Virus record (IMG/VR): IMGVR_UViG_3300032092_000317
Coordinates: 1-20,788 of that record
Length of the DNA stretch: 20,788 bases
Direction: 5' to 3' (one strand)
Origin: a virus
The notes under the pieces are model-generated. The model did no database searches, had not been told where the DNA came from, and worked only from the letters and a program-made list of their open reading frames with translations. This document shows positions 798 through 20,054 of this stretch, piece by piece. The position numbers and the translations under genes are program-made. Positions within the stretch are counted from its first letter, which is position 1, and each line of letters starts with the position of its first letter.

Positions 798-2198
798 TTA
801 AATTTTTATAAGTATTGAGCCTGTGCTTGTTGCATTTAAGGCATATCCTATTTTTACAGAATATAAACCAGAATCGCCAGTTATTCCGCCATTAATAGAC
901 TCTGATAAATATACAATACTATTTGAAGAAAATTGAGTAGTATCAATACCAGTAACAATTCCAAATGCAGCTATATATCCCGTTTGATTATTGGGAATAT
1001 TATCAGTAGCCACTCCCATAAGATGAGTTCTATGATAGGCATTTGATCCATTAGCTAACCATACTTTTGGAAGATTTTGATCAAATCCAGAAATATAAAC
1101 AGCCTGACCATTATTAATTTGTACGCTAGTTTTATTTACAGCTTTAAAATATTGCTCTTGAGATGCAGCAGAAATTAATCCAGTTGTATATCCAGAAAAA
1201 GTTTCAAACTTGTCTGTTGTAATTAAATCTTTATAATAATTAGCTGCAACAACTGACTTTCCACCCAAAACAATATTTACATTTTTAACATCATTTAAAG
1301 TTCCACTTATATCAATACCAATCATTCTTCTGAATGGTATGTAAGCATCTTGGGCCAATGTAGCCCAAGAATAAAATAATCCAGAATTCAAACCAAAACT
1401 TGTAATATGTACTTTTTGTTGATTTTTTGGATCTCTATAATAAAATCTTCCAGTTAACGGAAGCGAAATTGCAAATGGGCCAGACCCACTATTTGATACA
1501 TATACTGCCCATCTATTAACATAAAATTCATTTGCTGAATAATATTCTAGAAGCGTATTTCCAGTTGCTCCATATTCTGAATAAAAAGAAATTGAACTAT
1601 CGCCGCTTGACATAACAACCCCTTCGCTAATATTTTCTTGATATAAATCATTATATCTTCCCTTCAATACAATTGATAAATCTTCGGCCCCAGACAGTCC
1701 GGAATATATATCCAATCCTATAATTTGATTTCCAGTTAAAGTATCTTGAAAAATTTGCCCAGAATTAGCAAATTGCCCAGAATTAATATAAAAATTAGCT
1801 ATTGCAGATCTGTTCGATGGATTTAGAGGAGATCTAACATATAGCTGTCCAGTTAGTGGTGACCATATTGGTTGACCGCTTGCCCCACTTGTCAAATGTG
1901 CTGGCCCAACTCCAGATTCTCCTAAATAAACTTCCCATCCAGTAACGATATAATCTGTATTTAAATATTCTTCATACAAAGAAAGTCCAGTATATGGAAT
2001 TGACAAAAAAAAGTTTGGTGGCTGCAGGCCTATTTCAGATGGAAGCAACACATACTGATTGCTGGCAGGAATAACCAATGGTTTTCCATCTAAAAGCAGA
2101 GTCTGCTTAAATTCATCTGTTGTTAAAGCAGCTCCGCTAATAAACAATCCACCTATATTAAGGTAGGAGTCGCTTTGCTTTACTCTTTTATTAATCAT
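798..2198 (-). CDS. Virion fibre-like protein with two family C beta-modules and a C-terminal surface domain
   Basis: 466 residues. Residues about 71-180 and 205-313 are two copies of one module: a Y-rich opening with a W-x-V-Y strand (VTGWEVYLGESGVGP; NRWAVYVSNSGSGP), then LTGQLYVR / LTGRFYYR, an xxNSG turn, and IGLDIYSGLSGAEDLSIVLKG / IGIDISGTLNDVKNVNIVLGG. The same module occurs in the rightward gene at 16648-18378. Residues about 350-466 form a separate domain with NNGQAVYISG, HLMGVATDNI, GYIAAFGIVTGI and a terminal SILIKI strand. That resembles a small beta-barrel domain common at the C-terminus of phage capsid-decoration and fibre proteins. The start overlaps the stop of the upstream fibre gene by 8 nt, so the two are probably translationally coupled. 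Position between portal and protease would suit a head-associated fibre, but tail location cannot be excluded. Confidence 0.7.
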   Translation of the reverse strand: MINKRVKQSDSYLNIGGLFISGAALTTDEFKQTLLLDGKPLVIPASNQYVLLPSEIGLQPPNFFLSIPYTGLSLYEEYLNTDYIVTGWEVYLGESGVGPAHLTSGASGQPIWSPLTGQLYVRSPLNPSNRSAIANFYINSGQFANSGQIFQDTLTGNQIIGLDIYSGLSGAEDLSIVLKGRYNDLYQENISEGVVMSSGDSSISFYSEYGATGNTLLEYYSANEFYVNRWAVYVSNSGSGPFAISLPLTGRFYYRDPKNQQKVHITSFGLNSGLFYSWATLAQDAYIPFRRMIGIDISGTLNDVKNVNIVLGGKSVVAANYYKDLITTDKFETFSGYTTGLISAASQEQYFKAVNKTSVQINNGQAVYISGFDQNLPKVWLANGSNAYHRTHLMGVATDNIPNNQTGYIAAFGIVTGIDTTQFSSNSIVYLSESINGGITGDSGLYSVKIGYALNATSTGSILIKI

Positions 2199-3621
2199 AT
2201 GATGGATCTAAAGTAAATTGACTATACTGTAATGAGGCATGAAATATAGTACTTTCTGTAGATTTGCCGCTAGCCATTATATAAAAATTTGCATCATTTC
2301 CAGACTCTATAAATATGCCATAATCGTCGCTTCCACCAAATAAATCTGCCTGATCTTTGATAACTGTTTGTAAATTTGTACCTCTAGCAATTACGAAATA
2401 TTTTCTTCCATAAATAGTTTCTTCAAAGTCTTTACCCGCAAAACTTGCTAGAAAATCTGTAACTGGTGCATATTTACATGCAAAATAATCAACATGGCCA
2501 ACAAGCGCTGCTCCGGTTGGAACCTGTATGCCAGAATATTTAGTTCTTGGAACCTTCATTGCTTTAATAACTTGACCACCAGAAATTAAAGCTTTTAGAT
2601 TTATATTTCCAAAATAAGAATTGTTTACACTATTGCCAATACCAAAAGAATATGGATGCGGAAAGGCATCCCCGCCAGTCATATTAACGCCATTTATAAT
2701 TGTTGATCCTGTTTGATTAAATAAATACGCGCCGCTTAAATTTATATAAGTACAACCCTTGTTATTTGCAAAATATCCATCATTACAATTAATTGTTGAT
2801 ACAGATTTATTTCCAACAAGATAATTTCTATCGCCATTAATAAAAGTAGCAGAGTTGCCTGATGCAAAAAAATTCTGATAGCCAATCCAATTATAAGAAC
2901 CAGCTTGTGTTGATAAATTTGTACCCCAACCACTACCAATATATGAAAATGTTATAGTTTTTAAAAACGTATTTGTATTGATATTTATATCATTAGTTCC
3001 GCTTAGTAAAATATCTGATCCGCTTATTGTATTTAAACTTTTTACCCCAGCATTTTTAGCTCCACTAGAGTCTATGTAAATATTTTGACCAGTAACTCTA
3101 ACTGATGTACCATTCTCTCCAATTAAAGTAATTGAGCCAGATTTATTATTAATTTGACTAACTGTTTGGGCAGAAAGTCTAATTGCTCCACCAGAAAAAT
3201 AACTTACAATATTTTCTTGGCCAGTAATTGAAATGCCACTAATTGCAATTGTACTTGCATTTAATGGCCATACATCAACGTTGCCAGCCCCAGACAATGT
3301 AAGATTTCCACTTAGCGTATTCAATCTATTAACAGAAGTAGCTCCAGTTAGTCCAAAAACTATCGTAGAGCCTCCGCTAACATATGAATAAATACCGCTT
3401 GTGCCAGTTATATTAACATTACCAGTTAAACCAGCAAATGACTGTACAAAGTTACCATTATTATTATTTAATGTAAAATATAAAGTATTTCCTACAGGAA
3501 CAGTTTTAAGTCCAGAAACCCCACTTAAATAACTATAATTTGGATAAAGTGGATCAGCATATGTTTTTACTGCGCCAGATATATCTGGATGAAGCTGTGA
3601 TGCGCGGATAAGTGTTCTCAT
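2191..3621 (-). CDS. Fibre-like virion protein with shaft repeats and a 16-residue solenoid
   Basis: 476 residues. Residues 65-226 hold shaft-like repeats of the form GN-x-x-LSG..NI-x-V....TI-x-ISG (for example GNLTLSGAGNVDV, GSITLIGENG, SDILLSGTNDININ), typical of trimeric phage fibre shafts. Residues 250-313 hold four exact-length 16-residue repeats, each opening with an aromatic pair position (NFFASG, NYLVGN, GYFANN, AYLFNQ) and ending near T-x-IN, which suggests a beta-solenoid. The C-terminal 110 residues (VGHVDYFACKYAP through FTLDPSYD) form a globular domain with an ETIYGRKYFVIARGT segment. ATG 3621-3619 overlaps the stop of the portal C-terminal frame by one base (TAATG). This arrangement implies expression with the portal. 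The order of shaft, solenoid and globular tip supports a virion spike or fibre; exact location is unknown. Confidence 0.7.
   Translation of the reverse strand: MRTLIRASQLHPDISGAVKTYADPLYPNYSYLSGVSGLKTVPVGNTLYFTLNNNNGNFVQSFAGLTGNVNITGTSGIYSYVSGGSTIVFGLTGATSVNRLNTLSGNLTLSGAGNVDVWPLNASTIAISGISITGQENIVSYFSGGAIRLSAQTVSQINNKSGSITLIGENGTSVRVTGQNIYIDSSGAKNAGVKSLNTISGSDILLSGTNDININTNTFLKTITFSYIGSGWGTNLSTQAGSYNWIGYQNFFASGNSATFINGDRNYLVGNKSVSTINCNDGYFANNKGCTYINLSGAYLFNQTGSTIINGVNMTGGDAFPHPYSFGIGNSVNNSYFGNINLKALISGGQVIKAMKVPRTKYSGIQVPTGAALVGHVDYFACKYAPVTDFLASFAGKDFEETIYGRKYFVIARGTNLQTVIKDQADLFGGSDDYGIFIESGNDANFYIMASGKSTESTIFHASLQYSQFTLDPSYD
2683..2874 (-). repeat. Four tandem 16-residue (48-bp) solenoid repeats
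   Basis: Coding repeats for residues 250-313 of the fibre-like protein. Repeat starts are at residues 250, 266, 282 and 298, exactly 16 apart. Conserved features are an aromatic at position 2, a small residue or N near position 6, and a T/S-x-I-N stretch near the end. They are recognisable only at protein level, so the repeats are old. Confidence 0.6.
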
Positions 3622-4559
3622 TATTTTTTAGAATGATAAAGTATTGCTGCCTCATCTTCTCCTATTTCATGGTGAGCGGCAATATCAAAAATTTCTTTTG
3701 AAATATTATTTTTTGTCACATCTTGAGCTGGATTTTCAATATATTGATTAACTTTATTTTTCCAATCTGGCCTTTGCTCGGAGGAAATAATTATATTTGC
3801 CAAATCAAACGCTATGCTTTTTTGAGACTGATTTAGTTTTTTAATTTTATATTTTTTCTTTAGCGCTTCAGAGATTAAATTTTCTAATTCATCTTTTTCT
3901 TTTAATACAGATCCAATCAAAGCAGTGCTAAACTTATAAGATGCAACAGATTTTTGTCCTATTGGCGTAATAGCTTGCGTTGTTTGCTTTGCTGGTGTGC
4001 CATTTGGCCTCCCAGCCTGACCAGCAGGAGATTGTTTTGGATTTAATAATGGCTGATAAAAACCATCTTCTTTTTCAGAAATCATTTCCCTTTGAGACTC
4101 AACAAGCTCATATGGTTCTGGTAATACGTTAGTATTAATTGCAGAAATTGCATCCTTTGGAGAAATTGCCCCAAGCTCTAGCAATCTTGTGTAAACTCTA
4201 GACAGCACGGCAGAATCATTTCTAAAATTATGAGTCTTCCATTTTGGTGTTGGAACAGACTTAAAGTTCATAGTTTTGGCTATTTCACGCACTTGTGGCT
4301 CCAAGAATTTAACAATGAATTCTTTTCTTGCAAACTCAAGCCTCTTGAAAAATGCATCCATTTTTGCACTAGCATTTGCAAATTTATCATCGCCAAAAAT
4401 AATATTATTTAAACCAAGTCTGATATCACGATCTACAATTTCATATTTTTTTGGGTCAAGAATATCTCCAATTTGTGGAATAACGAATTGGGCCTTTGTT
4501 GTATAGTCTGCAATTAAAACTCTTCCAACGCTACCATTTTCAAAAATTTTACGAAGCAC
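3621..4559 (-). CDS. Portal protein, C-terminal part (separate frame after in-frame TAA)
   Basis: 312 residues, starting from GTG 4559-4557, which directly follows the TAA that ends the upstream portal frame, in the same frame. It opens with [20 protein letters not shown] and then [21 protein letters not shown], the region that in intact phage portals follows the long stem helix and pairs with capsid and terminase contacts. It continues through a helical segment ([20 protein letters not shown]) to a Pro/Gln/Gly-rich linker at about 175-205 and a charged helical tail, as is usual for portal C-termini. There is no Shine-Dalgarno sequence before the GTG and no independent start context. Either it is reached by readthrough or reinitiation, giving one or two portal chains, or the TAA is a mutation or sequence error. 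Homology to the portal is inferred from family pattern; a separate function is unlikely. Confidence 0.7.
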
Positions 4560-4562
4560 TTA
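4560..4562 (-). other. In-frame TAA interrupting the portal reading frame
   Basis: Minus-strand order is CCA AGC CAA AAA AGC CAG TAA GTG CTT CGT AAA. Upstream frame 5519-4560 and downstream frame 4559-3621 are in phase with nothing between them but this codon. Replacing TAA with CAA (one base) would yield one 632-residue chain, a normal portal length. Other genes in the window end with TAA, TAG and TGA, so a reassigned code does not explain it. Confidence 0.85.
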
Positions 4563-5519
4563 CTGGCTTTTTTGGCTTGGCGGTCCAAGCTCATCATTTC
4601 CCTGAGTTATTAACAAAACTGCTTGCTGAATGGTTCTAGATACAGCCATATCAACTTTTTTAAGCTCTAATTTCCAATTTATGTCTTCTAGAACTGGAAA
4701 GCCCATTGGAACTGCCAATGGTTCATAGTCTTGTTTTTTGTAAAAAATACTAACCAACCTATCAGAGTCAAGAGAAATCTCAAGAGATTGATTTCCATTT
4801 TTAATATTTTTTAACTCAGGCATTGTGGATGCAATTTTTTTATCCTCATCATTGTTCGGCCTTAACAATGCACCAATCTCAAAAGAATTCAATCTTTTCT
4901 TGTAAATAGGAGAGGTAAAGCTAGAAGACGCTAATACTTGTATATCATATGGATTTAATATAATATATTTTAATGGAACCTTTAACGCAGCCTCTGCAAT
5001 ATTCATTTGCTGAAGTTTTCGCAAACTTTCCCTTGGAAATTCACCGAATAATTTATAAATAAAAACATTTCCACTTCTGAAATATTCACGAAAGAACATA
5101 TCTGTCAACTGCCATAAATTTATTTTTTCTGCCCAAATATTAAAAAAGTTTCTTGATTCTTTATTTCCGCCACTGAATGTAATTTCAGAAATTGCAAATT
5201 CAGTCATTAAATCAATAGTATTTCTAAAAATAGGAACATTCCAATAGGCCTTTTGACATAAAAGAATTGTATCTTGCAATGAAATATTTGTAGCATATTT
5301 GCCATTACTTCTTTCGTACAAAAATGGCGCAACCCCAGCTTCAAGATTAGCAAATCTTTGAATTCTGGTTATGCTACCAGCAGAATTTGCCCTTGATCCT
5401 CTTTCAGGAGTTGTATCGCAAGACCCAATTAGCTTATCATAATCATCCAAGCTAGCTGTTAATGGTTCCGAAATCTCCTTTTTATTCTTTTTAGACCTTG
5501 TACCCTTTTTAGATATCAT
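4560..5519 (-). CDS. Portal protein, N-terminal part
   Basis: 319 residues from ATG 5519-5517. A basic disordered start (about 1-20) is followed by helical and mixed segments: LCQKAYWNVPIFRNTIDLMTE (about 88-107), FFREYFRSGNVFIYK (142-156), KYIILNPYDIQVLAS (184-198), then FYKKQDYEPLAVPMGFPVLEDI (259-280) and the stem-type helix ending AVLLITQGNDELGPP. These are hallmarks of dodecameric portals that form the DNA entry vertex, bind the large terminase and nucleate head assembly. The gene sits 56 nt downstream of the terminase, the usual order. At 319 residues it is about half a normal portal; the missing half is the frame that follows directly. The upstream gap holds TGTAATAAATAA, a possible promoter. 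I see the split directly; the portal call is from family pattern. Confidence 0.8.
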   Translation of the reverse strand: MISKKGTRSKKNKKEISEPLTASLDDYDKLIGSCDTTPERGSRANSAGSITRIQRFANLEAGVAPFLYERSNGKYATNISLQDTILLCQKAYWNVPIFRNTIDLMTEFAISEITFSGGNKESRNFFNIWAEKINLWQLTDMFFREYFRSGNVFIYKLFGEFPRESLRKLQQMNIAEAALKVPLKYIILNPYDIQVLASSSFTSPIYKKRLNSFEIGALLRPNNDEDKKIASTMPELKNIKNGNQSLEISLDSDRLVSIFYKKQDYEPLAVPMGFPVLEDINWKLELKKVDMAVSRTIQQAVLLITQGNDELGPPSQKSQ

Positions 5520-11614: not shown

Positions 11615-11700
11615 GTAAAAATAAAAAATAAAACTACTTTTAAAATTAAATCGAAATAATTAATATTTTTTACAATTAATGTGTATTATTATACCTGCAA

Positions 11701-11707
11701 TGTAATA
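11701..11707 (+). promoter_or_regulatory. TGTAATA motif upstream of first rightward fibre gene
   Basis: TGTAATATTCATTATG: the motif ends 6 nt before ATG 11714 and its 10-mer TGTAATATTC is identical to the one before phoH on the opposite strand. Its presence here also argues for ATG 11714 as the true start, since the GTG at 11681 would place the motif inside the gene. Confidence 0.4.
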
Positions 11708-11713
11708 TTCATT

Positions 11714-12793
11714 ATGGCCATACAGCTAAGTAGAGACATTATACATCCATATGCCAAGAATTTTATAGAAAAATCTGGAGGTTATGAAGTATTTAATAAT
11801 AGCGAAATAGAGGCTGTTAATTTTTTAATAAAAAGCTTAATTGATAATAATTTATGGAATAAATTTAAAGCATTATATCCGTTCGTTGGTCGGACTGCCC
11901 AAGCGCACGCTGTTAATTTAATCAATGCAAATCGTCATAATATAAAATGGTATGGTAATGTTATACATGATAGACTTGGCGTTACTGGAAATGGAGGCTA
12001 TGGCAATACACTTTTAGCAGCTGGCTTGTTGAAAGAAACAGATATACATGTTTCAGTTTATAATGCCACACAGTGGAGCTTGGCCAATAATAATTCGCAC
12101 CTGATAGGCACAACAAAAAAATCTCAAAGAATAACATTAAAAACAGCAATTGATAACAGATATACATATAGCACCGCGGATGGAATATTTTTCGCAGGAA
12201 CAGAAGGTAATGATATATCAAGCACAGAAGCTTTTGGGTTAATAGTTGGAATCAACAGCATTAAGTGCTATGTAAACGGAATACCATTTGGGGTCATCAG
12301 TCCAAATGACCCATCAACATTCGTACCAGCGCCTGGCAATTCGCAGCAACAAGCCGCAATGAATAATACCGTTATTCAAAGCTTAGATCAGTATCCAATG
12401 CTAATTTTATCTTATGATGATTTTGGATCAGTTTCTGTCAAATCTACAACAAATATAAGATTTGCCAGTATTGGCAGCGGAATGAATGATCAAGAGAATG
12501 CAAAATTTTATGAAATAGTCGAAAAATTTCAATCAATATTGCAAAGAAATGTTGGAAGTCTCAAGTTGAACATATACTTATTTGAAAATATAGAGAGGGA
12601 AAAAGTAACAGCTAATTTAAATATATTAAGTATAATTCAAAAATTAGGAGTATTTAAAATTAATCAAATAGAAAGTGAAAGCATAAAATCAAGTCTCTCA
12701 ATAAATAATTTGAGAATATCGGGAGCTAGGCGAGTTTACTTAAATGATAGGGCATCTTCAAATATATCTGTAATTTCTTTTACAGAAATATAA
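11714..12793 (+). CDS. Family A virion protein (concanavalin-like core), copy 1
   Basis: 359 residues from ATG 11714. I prefer this start over the in-frame GTG at 11681 because the resulting N-terminus (about 7 residues, then DIIHPYAKNF) matches that of the relative at 18414 (DIIHPMLYDF). The core has LYPFVGRTAQAHAVNL, a DIHVSVYNATQWS strand, a LIGTTKKSQRITLKT strand, FGLIVGINSIKCYVNG, and FASIGSGMNDQENAKFYEIV near 255-275. This order of strands is typical of concanavalin/LamG-like sandwiches in phage tail and virion proteins, which bind glycans or other virion parts. After the shared core it has about 80 extra residues absent from the copy at 15806. It heads the rightward arm; 20 nt separate it from the next gene. 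Fold is inferred from pattern; receptor binding is plausible but not shown. Confidence 0.75.
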   Translation: MAIQLSRDIIHPYAKNFIEKSGGYEVFNNSEIEAVNFLIKSLIDNNLWNKFKALYPFVGRTAQAHAVNLINANRHNIKWYGNVIHDRLGVTGNGGYGNTLLAAGLLKETDIHVSVYNATQWSLANNNSHLIGTTKKSQRITLKTAIDNRYTYSTADGIFFAGTEGNDISSTEAFGLIVGINSIKCYVNGIPFGVISPNDPSTFVPAPGNSQQQAAMNNTVIQSLDQYPMLILSYDDFGSVSVKSTTNIRFASIGSGMNDQENAKFYEIVEKFQSILQRNVGSLKLNIYLFENIEREKVTANLNILSIIQKLGVFKINQIESESIKSSLSINNLRISGARRVYLNDRASSNISVISFTEI

Positions 12794-12813
12794 AAAAAAA
12801 TATAATTAATTTG

Positions 12814-13908
12814 ATGAATATTTTAACAAAGAAATTTTATGAAAGCTTATTGGAGCCAAAAATGTTCGTTGGGGGAAAATGGAATATTTCTATAGTCTCA
12901 AGAGAGAATGGGCGCGAAAATTTCATCTTTGGAAAAAATAAAAAAAATAATTTAATATTAAATCAGGGATTAAATATTTTAGCAGAAAGTAAATATTTTA
13001 CAAATTATAATGGAATCAATTACAATACAATTCCAGCCTTTTTATATTCAACAGCTGTTTTAGGGAATGGATTAATTACTCCAAACGTAACAGACACTCA
13101 ATTAACAAACCAGCTTCAAGAAAGCACATCAATAAAAACAGACTCGTGCAGCGTTGAAGACAATTACATAAATGGAACACGGACCTTTAAAAAAGTTTAT
13201 GATTTTCCAAGCCCTACATCTAAGATCTCTGTTTCTGAAATTGGTTTAAATACTCCATTTAATAGCAAAAAACTTTTTTCAAAATTTTTATTAGAAAGAC
13301 CTGTAAGCATAGAAGTAGATGAGTTTATAAGATTATACTATGATTTTTCTGTTGGATCTGATGCCATTATAAATCCAATTAATATATCATCTTCTTCAGG
13401 AGGTGTAAATGCAAGTGGGCAAATTAAATTGTGTGGCAATTTTAATGATATATTTTTATCTATGGATTCTAATGGAAATCCAACATTTGGAAATGGAGAT
13501 TCACCAAGAACATCACTACTGCCTTATTACGAAAAATACTGCTCAGAAAATCCAAGCTGTGCAACTGAATGTTTTGGAACATGCTTTATGGTAGATCAAA
13601 ATCCATCAATGCCTACTGTTAATAATTCGCTATCTAATGAATGGATTGGAGAAAGGCTAGAGGAAAGTTTAGGAAATATATCGGCATCTACTTACATAAA
13701 TGGTAATTTTTATAGAGATATAACGTATACATTTAATAATAATAATCCAATCGAAACTAAAAATTTTGGCGGATTTTTATTTACAGTTACAAAAACAAAC
13801 AGACAAAATACATGGGATGGCTGGTTTTGGAAATTTACTAACAATCAAGTGAAATATAATTCAAAAAGTCTTGTAATTATATTAAGACAATCAATAAATA
13901 GAATATGA
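12814..13908 (+). CDS. Family B virion protein, copy 1 (module-free version)
   Basis: 364 residues from ATG 12814; the upstream in-frame TTG 12811 adds one residue and is less likely. It shares with 13905 and 20112 an N-terminal strand pair ending in FGKNKKNNLIL, and with 13905 the segment SGQIKLCGNFNDIF..DSNG (201-221) and the end GWFWKFTNNQVKY. Unlike the 13905 copy it has no SG modules, so it shows the uninterrupted fold. It has its own oddity: four cysteines at 243, 249, 253 and 257 (C-x5-C-x3-C-x3-C) where the other copy has none, perhaps a metal site or disulphides. Its TGA stop overlaps the next ATG (ATGA), so the two B genes are probably translationally coupled. Likely a virion fibre or baseplate-associated component; exact role unknown. 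Confidence 0.7.
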   Translation: MNILTKKFYESLLEPKMFVGGKWNISIVSRENGRENFIFGKNKKNNLILNQGLNILAESKYFTNYNGINYNTIPAFLYSTAVLGNGLITPNVTDTQLTNQLQESTSIKTDSCSVEDNYINGTRTFKKVYDFPSPTSKISVSEIGLNTPFNSKKLFSKFLLERPVSIEVDEFIRLYYDFSVGSDAIINPINISSSSGGVNASGQIKLCGNFNDIFLSMDSNGNPTFGNGDSPRTSLLPYYEKYCSENPSCATECFGTCFMVDQNPSMPTVNNSLSNEWIGERLEESLGNISASTYINGNFYRDITYTFNNNNPIETKNFGGFLFTVTKTNRQNTWDGWFWKFTNNQVKYNSKSLVIILRQSINRI

Positions 13909-15806
13909 ATATAGACATAAAATCTTACGTGTCTGCGTGTTATAACGTGGCAATATGTAAATCTGGAGAAAATGGAATAGAGGAAAAATATCCTCTTGGA
14001 ACAGGTATGCGCAAAAATACCATACTTGACTCGTGGCTTGAAACAATTCCATTAATTTTATCTACAGGCACAAATAAAAGATTCCATATGGCAGAAATGA
14101 TACGTGGTAATGGGTTTGGTGCTGCTCAGCTGAATAGTTCAATGCAAATAGGAAAAGGAACTACCCCAACAAATTATCAGCAGAGACAATTAGTAAATTT
14201 CTCAAAAGAAACTAGCTATGTTAGGCCATTTGTTACTGGAAGTTATTATATTGATAATACTGGGCTAGGTATGAGAACTTACAGTATTACTTATGAATAT
14301 CAGCCAGAAACTGGAACTAATACATATTATGAGGCTGGGTTAAAATCTCCATATTCATATTTTTGGCAATCTGGCTCCACGATTGATCCATCAAGAGTAC
14401 CGCCAACATTATTAAGCCCAATAATTTCTAGATTTCTTTTTACAAACCAAAGCGGAATAGTTGGTTTTGCAAGCGGCTTTGTTGATAATGTTGGAAACTA
14501 TTCCATTTTTACAGGCGCATCTGGCTATAGCGGATATATAATTAATAACCAATATACAAAATTTACAGGCGGTAACGATTTTCAAAACAGAACAGATTTC
14601 CAATACGGATATAGCGTATTTAATCCAATTTTTAATGGCACTACTGGAGGCTTTTTTAGTGGAATAAATTATGCAAATTCTGGAAGTGGAATTTTGAGTG
14701 GAATTATTGGTTATAAAAATGATCTTTCTGGAATTACGGCAAATATTGGTGAATATATAAAAATAAAATATGATGTATCAATAAGAATACCGGCAATTGT
14801 AAGCGGAATTCCAGTTACTGGAACGGGAGTATTGTACGGCGACTTTAATGGTAGTGGCGAGATAAAACTTTGCGGAACATTTAGAGATCTATTTGGCAAC
14901 GTTGACTCTAATGGCTATGTAAGATTTATAAATAATGGAGTTGCCGACTCAACCGCAGATTTATTACCAAGGCTTGAACAGCTTTCATGGGATACGCCAC
15001 CAGAAATAGAAGGATTAATGTGGCCAATAAACAATTTTCCAACAAATAGCACATTATCACAGGCGACCGCGCACTTCACGGCAACTTACATTTCAGGCAT
15101 ACAATTGAACCAAAATATAACAGGGTTTGTGAGTGGATACAAGGATCAATTTGGAAATTTTACCGGATTACATTTAATAGACATAAGTTCTGGGTCAAGT
15201 GGTTATTTTCTAAATCAACAAAAGTATTATTTTCCAACTGGAAACTTATTTTCAGGATTTAGCGGTCAATCTGGTTTTATAGAAAATGACAACATTACAT
15301 TTAAATATTCAGGATTTTCATTTGTATCTGGTAGTGGATTTTCTGGTTTAAATTTTATAAATTCTGGGTATGGAGTTATGACTGGAATTATTGGAAATAG
15401 ATCTGAGCTAATACCATCAGGATTTCCAAGCATAAATTCCGGAGCAAATGTGCCAATTGTAAATATTGGCGATTCTAGCTCTGATAGAAAAAATCCATTA
15501 CAATACAAAGGCACTGCATATGATTTATATCAAAGAAGCTCTGGTGCAAATCTTCAAGATAAATATATAGATAGAGAATTTTATTTTGTTGCCGATTATC
15601 CAAATTATGATTTAAAATTTGGTGGAATATTTTTCTGTCCAATGGTGAGAGATGTTAGTTCATTAATTGGCCTAATAGAATATCAACCAAATAAGTACAG
15701 CACTCAAAGAGGCTATGGATGGTATTGGAAATTTAACAATATACAAACAAAATACCAAGATCAACTGCTGAAATTAAATTTTAGATTTTCTATGGATAGA
15801 GATTAA
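13905..15806 (+). CDS. Family B virion protein, copy 2, carrying two inserted SG modules
   Basis: 633 residues. It is the longer relative of the preceding gene. Shared landmarks are KYPLGTGMRKNTILDSWL near 28-45, FLFT at 177-180, GEYIKIKYDVSI at 282-293, SGEIKLCGTFRDLF..DSNG at 317-337, and GWYWKFNNIQTKY near the end. Between FLFT and GEYIKIKYDV lies SG module A (about 185-272), and between the DSNG region and the C-terminal KFGGIFF strand lies SG module B (about 405-499). The previous gene runs straight through the corresponding places. The protein is rich in Gly, Ser, Asn and aromatics with almost no Cys. Start ATG overlaps the upstream TGA; the stop overlaps the next ATG (TAATG). Probably a surface-exposed fibre or spike component; no enzyme motif is visible. 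Confidence 0.72.
   Translation: MNIDIKSYVSACYNVAICKSGENGIEEKYPLGTGMRKNTILDSWLETIPLILSTGTNKRFHMAEMIRGNGFGAAQLNSSMQIGKGTTPTNYQQRQLVNFSKETSYVRPFVTGSYYIDNTGLGMRTYSITYEYQPETGTNTYYEAGLKSPYSYFWQSGSTIDPSRVPPTLLSPIISRFLFTNQSGIVGFASGFVDNVGNYSIFTGASGYSGYIINNQYTKFTGGNDFQNRTDFQYGYSVFNPIFNGTTGGFFSGINYANSGSGILSGIIGYKNDLSGITANIGEYIKIKYDVSIRIPAIVSGIPVTGTGVLYGDFNGSGEIKLCGTFRDLFGNVDSNGYVRFINNGVADSTADLLPRLEQLSWDTPPEIEGLMWPINNFPTNSTLSQATAHFTATYISGIQLNQNITGFVSGYKDQFGNFTGLHLIDISSGSSGYFLNQQKYYFPTGNLFSGFSGQSGFIENDNITFKYSGFSFVSGSGFSGLNFINSGYGVMTGIIGNRSELIPSGFPSINSGANVPIVNIGDSSSDRKNPLQYKGTAYDLYQRSSGANLQDKYIDREFYFVADYPNYDLKFGGIFFCPMVRDVSSLIGLIEYQPNKYSTQRGYGWYWKFNNIQTKYQDQLLKLNFRFSMDRD
14457..14720 (+). repeat. SG module copy A (88 aa)
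   Basis: Begins IVGFASGFVDNVGNYS, continues SGYIINNQYTKFTGGNDF, and ends SGSGILSGIIGYKN. The most divergent copy in the middle (NRTDFQYGYS instead of SGQSGF). Residues 185-272 of the family B protein at 13905. Confidence 0.65.
15117..15401 (+). repeat. SG module copy B (95 aa)
   Basis: Begins ITGFVSGYKDQFGNFTG, continues SGYFLNQQKYYFPTGNLF, then FSGFSGQSGF, and ends NSGYGVMTGIIGNR. Residues 405-499 of the family B protein at 13905. Very close to copies C and D of the gene at 16648. Confidence 0.75.
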
Positions 15807-16639
15807 TGAAAACAAACTTTTCTAGTGATAAAATTAATGTTTTATTAAGGCCATTTTTTAATCAAAATGGCGGTTATAGAAATTTTAGAGAATATGAAAT
15901 TCGATCCTTATCTGAATTAGTTGATAAACTAGTTGGTTACAATTTATGGAGTAAATTTTTAGCTATATATCCATTTGTTGGAAGAACGGCAAATAGTCAC
16001 TCTTTTAATATTAAAGACATTAATCAGTATAAAATAACTTGGACTGGAACATTAACCCATAATAATTTTGGAGTAATTAGTGGCGGTGGATGGGGTGATA
16101 CAAATTTCCCGCTAGTATTGTTAAGAAACAATTTAAATAATATACATATAAGCGCATATAACAGAACTTCGTTATCACAGTCAACTTTTGATGGCAGATT
16201 GATAGGGGTAAATTCTTTAAATATATTAACAAATTATAGAGAAGCTGGTGCTCAAGAATTAAATTTTACAACAGCAAATGGTGGAATAGTTGGCTATGTT
16301 TACAGTGAATATAGTAATTTGGGTGGTTATGGATACAAACAGAGTCAAGTTTCAACTGTAACAGGAAGAGGGCTTATGGTTGGTACAAACTGCGATAAAT
16401 GTTATTTAAATGGAGAAGTTTTTGGAGAATGGCAACCGCTTTTACCAACCCCAATTCACCCGCAGTGCCCAAGAAGAATTCTATTATTTGCAAACAGATA
16501 TGAAACAAGCGTAACTTCTGCTGCAAGAGTAAATCTGGCATTTGGGAGCATAGGATATGGATTTTCTGAAACTGATATTAAAAATTTTTCTGAGGCAGTA
16601 GAAACATTTCAAAAAGCAATGTATAGATCTGCACTGTAA
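15806..16639 (+). CDS. Family A virion protein, copy 2 (minimal version)
   Basis: 277 residues. It aligns along nearly its whole length with the gene at 11714: N-terminal helix pair followed by IYPFVGRTANSHSFNI, an NIHISAYNRTSL strand, a GRLIGVNSLNILT strand, GRGLMVGTNCDKCYLNGEVFG, and an end LAFGSIGYGFSETDIKNFSE. It stops 10-15 residues after that element, so it defines the minimal family A domain and shows that the 11714 copy carries a C-terminal extension. No Shine-Dalgarno sequence is evident, only GGATAGAG 8 nt upstream inside the previous gene; the start overlaps the previous stop by one base. A concanavalin-like carbohydrate-binding or structural virion protein is the best reading. Confidence 0.75.
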   Translation: MKTNFSSDKINVLLRPFFNQNGGYRNFREYEIRSLSELVDKLVGYNLWSKFLAIYPFVGRTANSHSFNIKDINQYKITWTGTLTHNNFGVISGGGWGDTNFPLVLLRNNLNNIHISAYNRTSLSQSTFDGRLIGVNSLNILTNYREAGAQELNFTTANGGIVGYVYSEYSNLGGYGYKQSQVSTVTGRGLMVGTNCDKCYLNGEVFGEWQPLLPTPIHPQCPRRILLFANRYETSVTSAARVNLAFGSIGYGFSETDIKNFSEAVETFQKAMYRSAL

Positions 16640-16641
16640 TA
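16635..16641 (+). promoter_or_regulatory. TGTAATA motif upstream of the family C gene
   Basis: CTGTAATAATTACCATG: the motif ends 6 nt before ATG 16648 and includes the TAA stop of the previous gene. As part of it is constrained by the stop codon, this instance is weaker evidence than the others. Confidence 0.3.
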
Positions 16642-16647
16642 ATTACC

Positions 16648-18378
16648 ATGCCTAACGTTTTTTCTATTGAAAATATTAATTTAAATGGATCTACCATTAC
16701 TACAAATAATGGTACGCTATATGTTAATAATAACCCAATCATTGCTCAAACTGGAGTATCTGTAAATGAAAATTTATTCATAAAAGGATATGCCCCGCTC
16801 ACATTCTATTCTAGATTGGCAATACATGGAACATATTTAAATGAAATATTTTTAAATGATGAATTTATAGCTACAGGATGGCTAATTACCTGCTCGCAGC
16901 CAGGCACAGGACAGTCGGCACTTCAAGGAAGATTCTATACCAGAAAGCCAACCTCAGTTATTGACACTCAAACTATAAGTCAATTTCAATTACAAACAGG
17001 TTCTATTTTTTCTTTCAGTAATCCATATTTTTATAAAGTTTATAGCGATAGCGTAATCGGTCTAGATATATATTCCATACCAGCAGAAATGCAATCGTTA
17101 TCTATCAATTTATTAGGATATTTCGCTGGAGCTGGCCACTTTGATAAAGTTCCAAAAACATTTGATACCTATATCAGAGGCAAAGTAGAAATTGGATATA
17201 ATATTTTTCAAGAATATGTACAATATGATACTACATTTACTGGTATTGGAATTTATGCAGGTGAGTCTGGCACTGGACCATCAACAATCAATACGCAATA
17301 TATAACCGGATATTTAAGTGGCACTTTAAACCAATACCCAATTTATAAAAGTATAACAGGCGTATATGCAAATAGTGGATACTTTGTAAGTGGAAAAAAA
17401 TATAATTTCCCTACAGGAAATCAATTTTCTGGATTTAGTGGTCAGTCTGGATTTGATAATATATGGGGCTATTCATATAGTGGCTTTGAAATATCAAGAA
17501 GCGGTGATAATATTTTTAGTGGTTATTATGGTAATGTAAGATTTGGTGAAGGAGAGCTTTTAGAAAAAATAGGCACAAGAAATTATACCGTTCAAGAAAA
17601 AATAATAGGTTTTAGAAGTGGATTTTTGAATGAATCATTTGTATTTTCTGGATTTACTGGACAACAAAACCTGAGTGGATATTTTATTAGTGGGACGCAA
17701 TATTATTTTCCAACAGGGACTGGCTTTGCAAATTTCAGTGGTCAATTTGGATTTGATGAATATCTGGGATATTCTTATACTGGATTTACCTTTCCAGAAG
17801 GAGTTGGCTTTAGCGGATTAACATTTCCAAGTTCTGGAACTGGAATTTTGACTGGATATATTGGACATCGAAATGTTTTGACTGGTGAATTTGTTAGCGG
17901 ATTTATAAAAATAATATCTGATTATGATTTTACTGTCGCAACAGGAAGAAATTTTGTTAGTGGATATTTTATAGACAGAACAAGAACTGGATTCGATACT
18001 GGCATTCCATTTTCTGGATTTGATGGGCGAAGTGGATTTGATAATTATTGGGGCTACACTTTTAGCGGATTTTTCCCCACAAGCAGCGGATTTAGCGGCA
18101 GTAATTTTTTATATTCTGGAAGTGGCATAATGACAGGAGCAATTGGTTATAGATATATTCCAAACTTAAATCCATTATCTGGACAGTTTTATTATAAAAA
18201 TAATCTTGGCGATAAAACAGCTGGCCCTAGCTTTATTTTAAACTCTGGAGAAAAATTTTATGAAAGCACATCTGTATTTTATCCAGTTTCTGGAAAAAGA
18301 ATTATTGGATTTGATATACATAATACCCTTTCTGGCTTAAGTGATGTGAATATAGTATTGATGGGATATTATAATTGA
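16648..18378 (+). CDS. Family C virion protein with three SG modules nested in a beta-module
   Basis: 576 residues. The N-terminal 45 residues (NLNGSTITTNNGTLYVNN) look like a fibre-shaft or attachment strand set. Residues about 55-160 are one complete family C module (IATGWLITCSQPGTG, ALQGRFYTRKP, IGLDIYSIPAEMQSLSINLLG). A second module starts at about 188 (EYVQYDTTFTGIGIYAGESGTGP) but its second half (LSGQFYYKN, IGFDIHNTLSGLSDVNIVLMG) appears only at 507-576. The about 270 residues between are SG modules C, D and E. The modules in the leftward gene at 798-2198 have no such insert. It has no enzyme motif and is nearly Cys-free. It lies in the middle of the rightward fibre arm, 8 nt after the previous gene. 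Likely an elongated, surface-exposed fibre or spike. Confidence 0.72.
   Translation: MPNVFSIENINLNGSTITTNNGTLYVNNNPIIAQTGVSVNENLFIKGYAPLTFYSRLAIHGTYLNEIFLNDEFIATGWLITCSQPGTGQSALQGRFYTRKPTSVIDTQTISQFQLQTGSIFSFSNPYFYKVYSDSVIGLDIYSIPAEMQSLSINLLGYFAGAGHFDKVPKTFDTYIRGKVEIGYNIFQEYVQYDTTFTGIGIYAGESGTGPSTINTQYITGYLSGTLNQYPIYKSITGVYANSGYFVSGKKYNFPTGNQFSGFSGQSGFDNIWGYSYSGFEISRSGDNIFSGYYGNVRFGEGELLEKIGTRNYTVQEKIIGFRSGFLNESFVFSGFTGQQNLSGYFISGTQYYFPTGTGFANFSGQFGFDEYLGYSYTGFTFPEGVGFSGLTFPSSGTGILTGYIGHRNVLTGEFVSGFIKIISDYDFTVATGRNFVSGYFIDRTRTGFDTGIPFSGFDGRSGFDNYWGYTFSGFFPTSSGFSGSNFLYSGSGIMTGAIGYRYIPNLNPLSGQFYYKNNLGDKTAGPSFILNSGEKFYESTSVFYPVSGKRIIGFDIHNTLSGLSDVNIVLMGYYN
17353..17541 (+). repeat. SG module copy C (63 aa)
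   Basis: Begins ITGVYANSGYFVSGKKYNFP, then FSGFSGQSGFDNIWGYSYSGF, and ends with a shortened DNIFSGYYGNVR. Residues 236-298 of the family C protein; lacks the long GFSGxxFxxSG stretch of other copies. Confidence 0.7.
17602..17871 (+). repeat. SG module copy D (90 aa)
   Basis: Begins IIGFRSGFLNESFVFSGFTG, then LSGYFISGTQYYFPTGTGF, NFSGQFGFDEYLGYSYTGF, and ends SSGTGILTGYIGHR. Residues 319-408 of the family C protein; a full-length copy. Confidence 0.75.
17941..18153 (+). repeat. SG module copy E (71 aa)
   Basis: Begins TGRNFVSGYFIDRTRTGFDT, then FSGFDGRSGFDNYWGYTFSGF, and ends YSGSGIMTGAIGYR. Residues 432-502 of the family C protein; lacks the leading ITGFxSG part. Confidence 0.72.
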
Positions 18379-18413: not shown

Positions 18414-20054
18414 ATGCGCCCATATAAAGACATAATTCATCCCATGCTATACGATTTCTCAAATCGTGTAGCAGAAGTTGGATTTAATACATTTGATCAA
18501 TTTGAAATATCATATTTAAATGATTTTGTTACCTATTTGAACGAGACAATTCCGGATGGAAATTTTGCATTCTATCCTTTAAGAATAAAACAAAATGTGG
18601 GCCAGGGAAGGACTGGCATAGGTATGGGAAAAATGGGATCTGGAAACCCAATTATATTTAATAGTGGAGTTACTTGGAACCAGTCTGGGGTATACATGGA
18701 TAGCCTGAACAATTGCGGACTTATTGATTTTGAAAATTTAGGATTTCAATTTAGAAGGGACACATCTACAATTTTTTATGTTTTTAAACATGAAAGAAGT
18801 GAAAATGAAGAGTTAATGTTTAGGCTGAACCAAACAACTCCATATTTTTGCTTTGACAGATCAGATAATATTTGCGCAGATCACTTTACCGTATATGCCC
18901 CAGAATTTTCAAATGATCCAAGAAGACCTGTGGGAACAACATATATTTATGATCAATTTTTTGGTCTTGACAAAAAAGGATATGCGGTAGATTATTCAAT
19001 AAGACCTTCAGAGCTTGCATCCAAAAATCAAGCTTATTCTTTTTATAGTTTGGCAAATAATTTTGTAAGTTTAAATTTTTGCTCTAATTTTGATAATTTT
19101 TCTTTAAGATCTTTTAGCGGTGTCGATAATACAATTTTAACGGGAAGCTTTCCAAAGCCATACTTGGTAAGATATGAGAAACAATTGGATGATCAATTAA
19201 CCGGCATATATACAGAAAATCCAAATTATAATCCTGATGATACAACGCCAATACCATCAGAGGCAATTCCTGGCTCTTTATATATTGACGAACCAGAAAG
19301 TGAATTGGTTAAAAAATTTTTAATGCCATCTAGAATGGTTATTGGTGCTGGCGTTTCTAGCGTTGGAAATTCTTACAATATAAGTGGCTTGCCACAAACT
19401 TGCGCTGGGGTATTAATTATTAGTGGAAATTATTGCAATTTATCAAGCCAAATAAATGATAAATTATTCGCAGCTCTTGGGATAAAAAGAGCACCAGATC
19501 CATTTATCTTTCAAAATATAGAAAACATAAATATAGCCCCAAATATTACAAGCATAATTTATAAAGATAATCCATACATTTTAGATCAAATAACAGAAAG
19601 CTTTTTATTTTTTCCAAATATACAAAAAACAGTTTATAGATCTATTTTTGAATTTTATTATGAATCTGTTGGTATAACCGGATTACTATTTGCACCACTT
19701 GAAATATTTTATGCCAGCGGAAACATCAATAATATTTCTTACTTCCCAATATCAGCAGCAATTACCGGAACTGAAACTGGAATTTACACAGTCTCTGGCA
19801 TTGGCCAAATAAATAGTAATATTATTTATGGAATAAAAGAGACTGGCATTTATGGCGCTTCAGGAATAAGACAAATTAATGATAACTTGATTTATGGAAT
19901 AAAAGAAACTGGTGTTTATGGAGTATCAGGGGCTTCTGTTATTAATTTTAATTTAATCAATGTATCTGAAACATTTGGCGTTTCAAGCTATGGAATTATA
20001 AATGACGCATATGAAGATATATTTGGACTCACGGCCTCTGGATCAATATCATAA
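18414..20054 (+). CDS. Family A-related virion protein, copy 3, with C-terminal tandem repeats
   Basis: 546 residues. The N-terminus (YKDIIHPMLYDF, then an aromatic helix and FAFYPL) matches the opening of the family A gene at 11714. The following core is longer and more divergent: RTGIGMGKMGSG, STIFYVFKHERS and CFDRSDNICADHF, with an FAALGI element near 360 in the place of FASIGSG. Residues 449-536 are four 22-residue tandem repeats (ETGIYGASG..QIN type). It begins 35 nt after the previous gene with AATAAATG 6 nt before the ATG and no Shine-Dalgarno sequence. Two long spacers rich in Ile, Asn, Pro and Tyr separate core and repeats. Probably a fibre or spike with a receptor-facing or oligomerising repeat tail; no catalytic motif seen. 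Family A membership rests mainly on the N-terminus and order of elements. Confidence 0.68.
   Translation: MRPYKDIIHPMLYDFSNRVAEVGFNTFDQFEISYLNDFVTYLNETIPDGNFAFYPLRIKQNVGQGRTGIGMGKMGSGNPIIFNSGVTWNQSGVYMDSLNNCGLIDFENLGFQFRRDTSTIFYVFKHERSENEELMFRLNQTTPYFCFDRSDNICADHFTVYAPEFSNDPRRPVGTTYIYDQFFGLDKKGYAVDYSIRPSELASKNQAYSFYSLANNFVSLNFCSNFDNFSLRSFSGVDNTILTGSFPKPYLVRYEKQLDDQLTGIYTENPNYNPDDTTPIPSEAIPGSLYIDEPESELVKKFLMPSRMVIGAGVSSVGNSYNISGLPQTCAGVLIISGNYCNLSSQINDKLFAALGIKRAPDPFIFQNIENINIAPNITSIIYKDNPYILDQITESFLFFPNIQKTVYRSIFEFYYESVGITGLLFAPLEIFYASGNINNISYFPISAAITGTETGIYTVSGIGQINSNIIYGIKETGIYGASGIRQINDNLIYGIKETGVYGVSGASVINFNLINVSETFGVSSYGIINDAYEDIFGLTASGSIS
19758..20021 (+). repeat. Four 66-bp tandem repeats (22 aa each)
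   Basis: Periods start at 19758, 19824, 19890 and 19956. Copies 2 and 3 share ATTTATGGAATAAAAGA and ACTGG at DNA level and read IYGIKETGIYGASG / IYGIKETGVYGVSG. Copy 1 (TGTETGIYTVSGIGQINSN) and copy 4 (NVSETFGVSSYGIINDA) are more divergent. The two near-identical central copies suggest recent duplication or slippage within an older array. Confidence 0.8.

Follow-up and report, generated by a model that had tools for sequence, protein, structure and literature searches.

The insertion of a protein domain into another copy of itself is rare, and the cases that we found are the HABAS domains of RNA polymerase and the DysF domains of ferlins. The HABAS domain is a four-stranded open sheet with a GD-box-like motif. 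In the beta' subunit of cyanobacterial RNA polymerase (Si3), HABAS domains of the same family are recursively inserted in one another (PMC11515920). This nesting is reported to reach up to six levels and to include bifurcating hosts (PMC13114784). The DysF domain of dysferlin and myoferlin has two long antiparallel end strands and a 77-residue loop, and one DysF lies within another (PMC3898210). On phage virions, Ig-like domains such as those of T4 Hoc are small transferable beta domains carried by virion proteins in variable strings (PMC10385173). We found no example of recursive self-insertion in virion proteins in the literature searched, the coverage of which was incomplete. Here we describe a phage module that is likely to be self-inserting, lodged in the loops of fibre or baseplate-arm proteins where it would form nested and sometimes branched arms.

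The window, by which we mean the whole stretch of DNA analysed, is an IMG/VR record of 20,788 bases. Its minus strand holds the head-and-packaging core, with genes for part of a portal, the terminase large subunit, an ERCC4-type nuclease, a sigma-like factor and PhoH, and a row of fibre-like genes starts on the plus strand at 11,681. The seven plus-strand proteins gave zero matches to Pfam families. We found matches to PHROG 4176 ('tail fiber protein') for genes 12811 (E 5e-11) and 20112 (E 3e-6). Gene 13905 itself fell below the threshold, yet it is tied to this tail-fibre family through its homology to 12811. Among cultured phages, tblastn found no match to 13905, 16648 or the 1236-residue orthologue of 13905 from allele G001.

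Relatives were collected by their terminase, which gave 23 loci in IMG/VR that are 94-98% identical. Eight allele classes, the window included, were readable, and further scans found no additional alleles. Gene order is kept across the alleles. Over the core, which spans about 3.5 to 11.6 kb, relatives match the window's DNA at 82-91% identity, while the fibre genes past the core show essentially zero nucleotide match and, for genes up to 16648, a protein identity of 31-54%. A hypervariable fibre cluster adjoins the conserved core.

Other features of the window were seen in passing. Genes 798 and 2191 (798-3621) form a second hypervariable pair, mostly 39-51% identical to relatives at the protein level and lying between two conserved stretches of DNA (1-782 at 87-90%, 3.5-11.6 kb at 82-91%). 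The C-terminus of gene 798 (798-2198) shows similarity to PF09956, a family of phage cement proteins, with an E of 1e-4, just under the cut-off. The portal-like region at 3621-5519 consists of two open reading frames (4560-5519 and 3621-4559), is the same in relatives at 83-95% identity, and may be a split or a frameshifted portal. In the fibre row, genes 11681 (11681-12793) and 15806 (15806-16639) are paralogues with 32% identity that alternate with the 12811/13905 pair; neither matched a library family in Pfam or PHROG.

A module of about 95 residues, rich in glycine, serine and aromatic residues, occurs twice in 13905 and three times in 16648 (Table 1). The original prediction had placed five copies here, and profile matches A to E were all found at those places. 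BLAST of 13905 against 16648 matched the modules alone, with 37-51% identity and E values of 5e-10 to 8e-17. Because the composition of the module is extreme (17% glycine, 13% phenylalanine and 12% serine), module pairs were tested against shuffled copies. All ten pairs gave Z scores of 6.2 to 20.2, each above every one of 200 shuffles. Modules A to E are homologous beyond their composition. The five copies had been said to share an ordered set of motifs, but A is without FSGFSGQSGF and YxFPTGxxF and the tail of C is degenerate (FGEGELLEKIGTRN), so that some copies do not carry the whole set.

The module had also been described as a sequence that was not recognised, and searches of Pfam, PHROG and PDB sequences gave no match to a described family. 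Against 47 modules, Pfam produced nothing beyond three single chance hits. The search of PDB sequences found nothing up to E 1 with the five copies, and one chance hit (E 0.65) with 47 copies. A hit of the profile HMM to a known domain would have spoken against the original prediction; none was found. The IMG/VR matches to the module signature were all in the same phage group, where the module is present in the records of 12 of the 23 relatives with many copies per record, and there were 0 matches in 84,980 species genomes. Estimates of dN/dS in the modules of sister pairs were 0.07-0.19, with G008/G023 the only unsaturated pairs (0.07 and 0.12). In these tested pairs, selection on the modules is purifying.

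Table 1. Coordinates in the window of the modules, their host genes and the candidate ports.
Feature	Position	Strand	Evidence
Gene 12811, module-free relative of 13905	12811..13908	+	Module absent in 8 of 8 alleles
Gene 13905, tail-fibre/baseplate-arm-like host, 633 aa, with modules A and B	13905..15806	+	BLAST to 12811; AlphaFold host-model matches
Host strand ISRFLFT preceding A	14421..14444	+	AlphaFold strand 173-178; SRFLFT or SRFVFT conserved in orthologues
Module A, base module, both ports empty in window allele	14457..14717	+	HMM 3-95, E 7e-15
Host strand GEYIKIKYDV following A	14748..14777	+	AlphaFold strand 283-295; aligns to DEFIRLYYDF of 12811
Module B, special to window allele	15111..15401	+	HMM 1-95, E 6e-30
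Gene 16648, duplicated-domain host (domain also twice in 798), with modules C, D and E	16648..18378	+	BLAST to 798
Second host domain of 16648, first half	17185..17283	+	Joined halves 39% identical to 798 residues 71-183
Module C	17296..17580	+	HMM 1-95, E 7e-24
Module D, AlphaFold-modelled copy	17596..17871	+	HMM 1-95, E 5e-28; pLDDT about 77-93 by block
Approximate port 1 in D, occupied in some relatives	17707..17733	+	N-piece fragments end at HMM 40-47; model loop after strand 39-42
Approximate port 2 in D	17803..17826	+	N+M fragments end at HMM 71-80; model loop between strands 76-79 and 85-101
Module E	17881..18153	+	HMM 4-95, E 8e-23
Second host domain of 16648, second half	18160..18375	+	Alignment of joined halves
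Gene 18414, module-free in window	18414..20054	+	Orthologues: nested arrays in C-terminal half

We found that, once A and B are taken out, 13905 aligns over its full length with 12811 (85.5 bits, E 8e-23). Gene 12811, numbered 12814 in the original prediction, had been named there as a module-free relative and is one in all eight alleles read. Similarly, the second domain of 16648 without C to E is 39% identical to gene 798 (E 5e-20) and also aligns to the first 16648 domain. Outside the modules, 13905 and 16648 share zero BLAST similarity, which bears out the statement that the host proteins are otherwise unlike. Since the hosts align across the removed modules and show no similarity to each other otherwise, the modules lie in loops of two unrelated hosts. 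The module thus behaves as a separable domain within loops and not at chain ends, as had been proposed, and its hosts, of two unrelated folds, each align through the junctions with module-free relatives. Because 12811 and the domains of gene 798 exist without the SG stretches, these are no integral part of the host folds. To say that the module was 'inserted five times' is misleading. A module was present at site A in all 13905 orthologues read, and every relative in which the C-E site was read had a group of three modules there. The one copy peculiar to the window is B, whose site was empty in 6 of the 6 other allele classes compared.

The apparent self-insertion of the module and the variation in its copy number were missed in the original prediction because they are invisible in the window alone. 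Many of the module matches in relatives were half modules. We cut the profile into three pieces, N, M and C, with thresholds taken from shuffled proteins, read the order of the pieces as words, and tested the grammar Module = N [Module*] M [Module*] C. This nesting rule needed 17 edits for 213 pieces in 17 arrays, whereas plain tandem order needed 82, and 200 shuffles of each word gave a mean of 95 edits with a minimum of 74. The arrays in which we noticed the rule are also those used to test it, and five threshold settings agree: with the four other sets nesting took 16-21 edits, against 73-85 for tandem order and 88-95 for shuffles. Gene 16648 of G001 and G015 (7 N, 7 M, 7 C; 1040 residues in G001) was parsed with zero edits at a nesting depth of four. 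The fragment breaks fall mainly in two groups, at HMM 40-47 (port 1) and HMM 71-80 (port 2). Judged from the order of the pieces, further modules in relatives probably sit inside modules at these two fixed breaks, sometimes at both, which would make the array branched. When N and C pieces assigned to one module were compared between sister alleles, their divergences showed no clear correlation.

We used AlphaFold2 to model a piece containing D and E, with 60 alignment rows. In this model D has a pLDDT of mostly 88-93, long strands at its termini (2-16 and 85-101) with a long loop connecting them, and both ports in predicted loops, while module E, with a shallow alignment, was poor. A Foldseek search with the module model, half of which (E) was poor, found nothing at E<0.001 in PDB and BFVD. 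Structural matches to KCTD1, SPOP and dysferlin were weak and we did not take them as a relationship. The inner DysF domain 4cah was among three weak matches to D (Z 3.4, rmsd 4.6, 87 residues), far below significance, and is a possible lead only.

Gene 13905 was modelled with a host-centred alignment. Its host model matched the HFTV1 tail chain 9h4p_BD with a Z of 11.6, and the phi812 arm segment and A511 gp105 with a Z of 6.6. With the latter two, 111 aligned residues run over 70-293 of the model and 14-173 of the chain. The known chain takes just 160 residues for this stretch of the model, so module A is an addition relative to these two structures. Modules A and B themselves had a pLDDT below 50 in the full model because the alignment was shallow.

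The same order of pieces may be read without nesting, as an out-and-back fibre in which the chain climbs N-type repeats, turns and returns via M/C-type repeats, so that the repeats pair across a long hairpin. For the most part the deep arrays read NNNN and then MC MC MC, which is also expected of a hairpin, and D has long terminal strands. The order of the pieces excludes tandem repeats and hardly separates last-in-first-out from other pairings of half modules; it is only the comparison of base module A that speaks for true nesting over such a fibre. The 13905 orthologues have one common base module at the A site. In our reading of the piece words its port contents (port 1+port 2) are 0+0 in the window, 0+1 in G003, G008 and G023, 2+1 in G010, 3+2 in G011, and 4+2 in G001 and G015, so that base A carries 0 to 6 nested copies depending on the allele. 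Its M piece has the signature IPxxEYGW and variants of it in six non-window alleles. We found that base-A M pieces score 53-153 among themselves and no more than 62 with 57 other M pieces, and that they are alike across the alleles of relatives whether or not they are split from the N piece; the window's base-A M piece is too diverged to group with this orthologous set. That base A keeps its identity while its inserts change, its pieces being the same whatever lies between them, argues for true insertion. A hairpin is also at odds with the complete, uninterrupted modules found on their own at a number of sites, among them all five of the window, with whole modules at port 2 that have just a short C piece behind them, and with the base modules in which both ports are filled. 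We therefore consider the out-and-back fibre unlikely.

The second host gene, 16648, has three plain modules in the window and G011. In G003, G008 and G023 there is, by the same reading, one extra module within the second and one within the third, and in G001 and G015 the second and third hold one and three extra modules. In G008 (L109:10777-13326), residues ~401-528 around the inner D module are closer to G003 and the remainder is G023-like. The closeness of this inner D to G003 rather than G023 suggests exchange at the scale of modules, and recombination of that kind is probable in the G008 gene. The edges of the exchanged stretch do not coincide exactly with the ports. The window's gene 18414 ends with a short tandem repeat of its own (YGIKETGxYGxSG...IN) where its orthologues have nested module arrays.

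Since C, D and E adjoin and array length varies, we considered ordinary tandem repeats within the host folds that change in length by slippage. This is very unlikely given the far higher edit count of tandem order (82 against 17) and the existence of module-free hosts that align across the junctions. Furthermore, the nearest-neighbour lists show no pair of module copies from the same record above 57% identity, and thus recent slippage is not seen. Variable genes for surface proteins in a phage could also reflect a diversity-generating retroelement or another targeted mutator, which we hold to be more improbable still. The PF00078 reverse transcriptase was absent from 7 records of up to 170,518 bp, possibly incomplete, with positive controls; the variation is in whole modules and spread over the gene, and dN/dS is low. 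Least credible of all is that the arrays, which come from metagenomic contigs with repeats, are assembly artefacts of repetitive sequence, given that the same arrays recur in independently named records (G003/G004/G018, G014/G015, G011/G017, G006/G023), the reading frames are open for >1000 codons, the copies are too diverged to collapse and selection on them is purifying.

We propose that the module is an autonomous, beta-rich domain whose ends would probably lie side by side, which would allow it to be housed in a loop of a different fold; the terminal strands seen in the model of D may pair. Two of its own loops would tolerate insertion, port 1 between N and M and port 2 between M and C. 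In this phage group the module would have moved into loops of fibre or baseplate-arm proteins, and later copies would have entered the ports of earlier ones, giving nested, sometimes branched arms along which the copies may stack outward. Such arms may help attachment to variable cell surfaces, and the whole cluster may be swapped by recombination. We infer contact of the module with the cell surface from its position and from the variability of the cluster, and the earlier suggestion that it diversifies surface binding is plausible. A broader proposal is that this two-port surface module builds recursive, branching arms by an open-ended growth rule, with depth and branching, and not sequence alone, differing between alleles; we give it an even chance. 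Self-nesting here concerns a family absent from the libraries searched, in several fibre genes and with a depth that varies between alleles. It suggests that phages may be able to extend their surface arms, or to branch them, with the host folds untouched, and the two ports could serve as sites for protein design.

The phage module resembles the HABAS domains in the recursive insertion of one family. However, HABAS is a different domain in a subunit of a cellular enzyme, and here a phage fibre module is found in at least three genes. Nesting depth here also differs between alleles with nearly identical core genes, so that the evolution of nested insertion can be compared directly between relatives. 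The DysF domain shares with the model of D a long strand at each terminus, and both would nest in themselves. In contrast to DysF, which nests once and is held together by conserved arginine/tryptophan stacks, the phage module appears to nest up to four deep, and 33 of 47 modules are without tryptophan (0.4% of residues); we rejected membership in DysF on the tryptophan stacks. The Ig-like domains, such as those of T4 Hoc, are likewise small transferable beta domains of virions. The module differs from them in that it sits in loops and probably inside itself, not in a simple string, and it gave no hit to an Ig family. Finally, HFTV1 9h4p_BD, the phi812 arm segment 9fko and A511 gp105 6hhk have the same fold as the 13905 host, but the aligned arm domain of these phage proteins is much shorter where module A lies in 13905.
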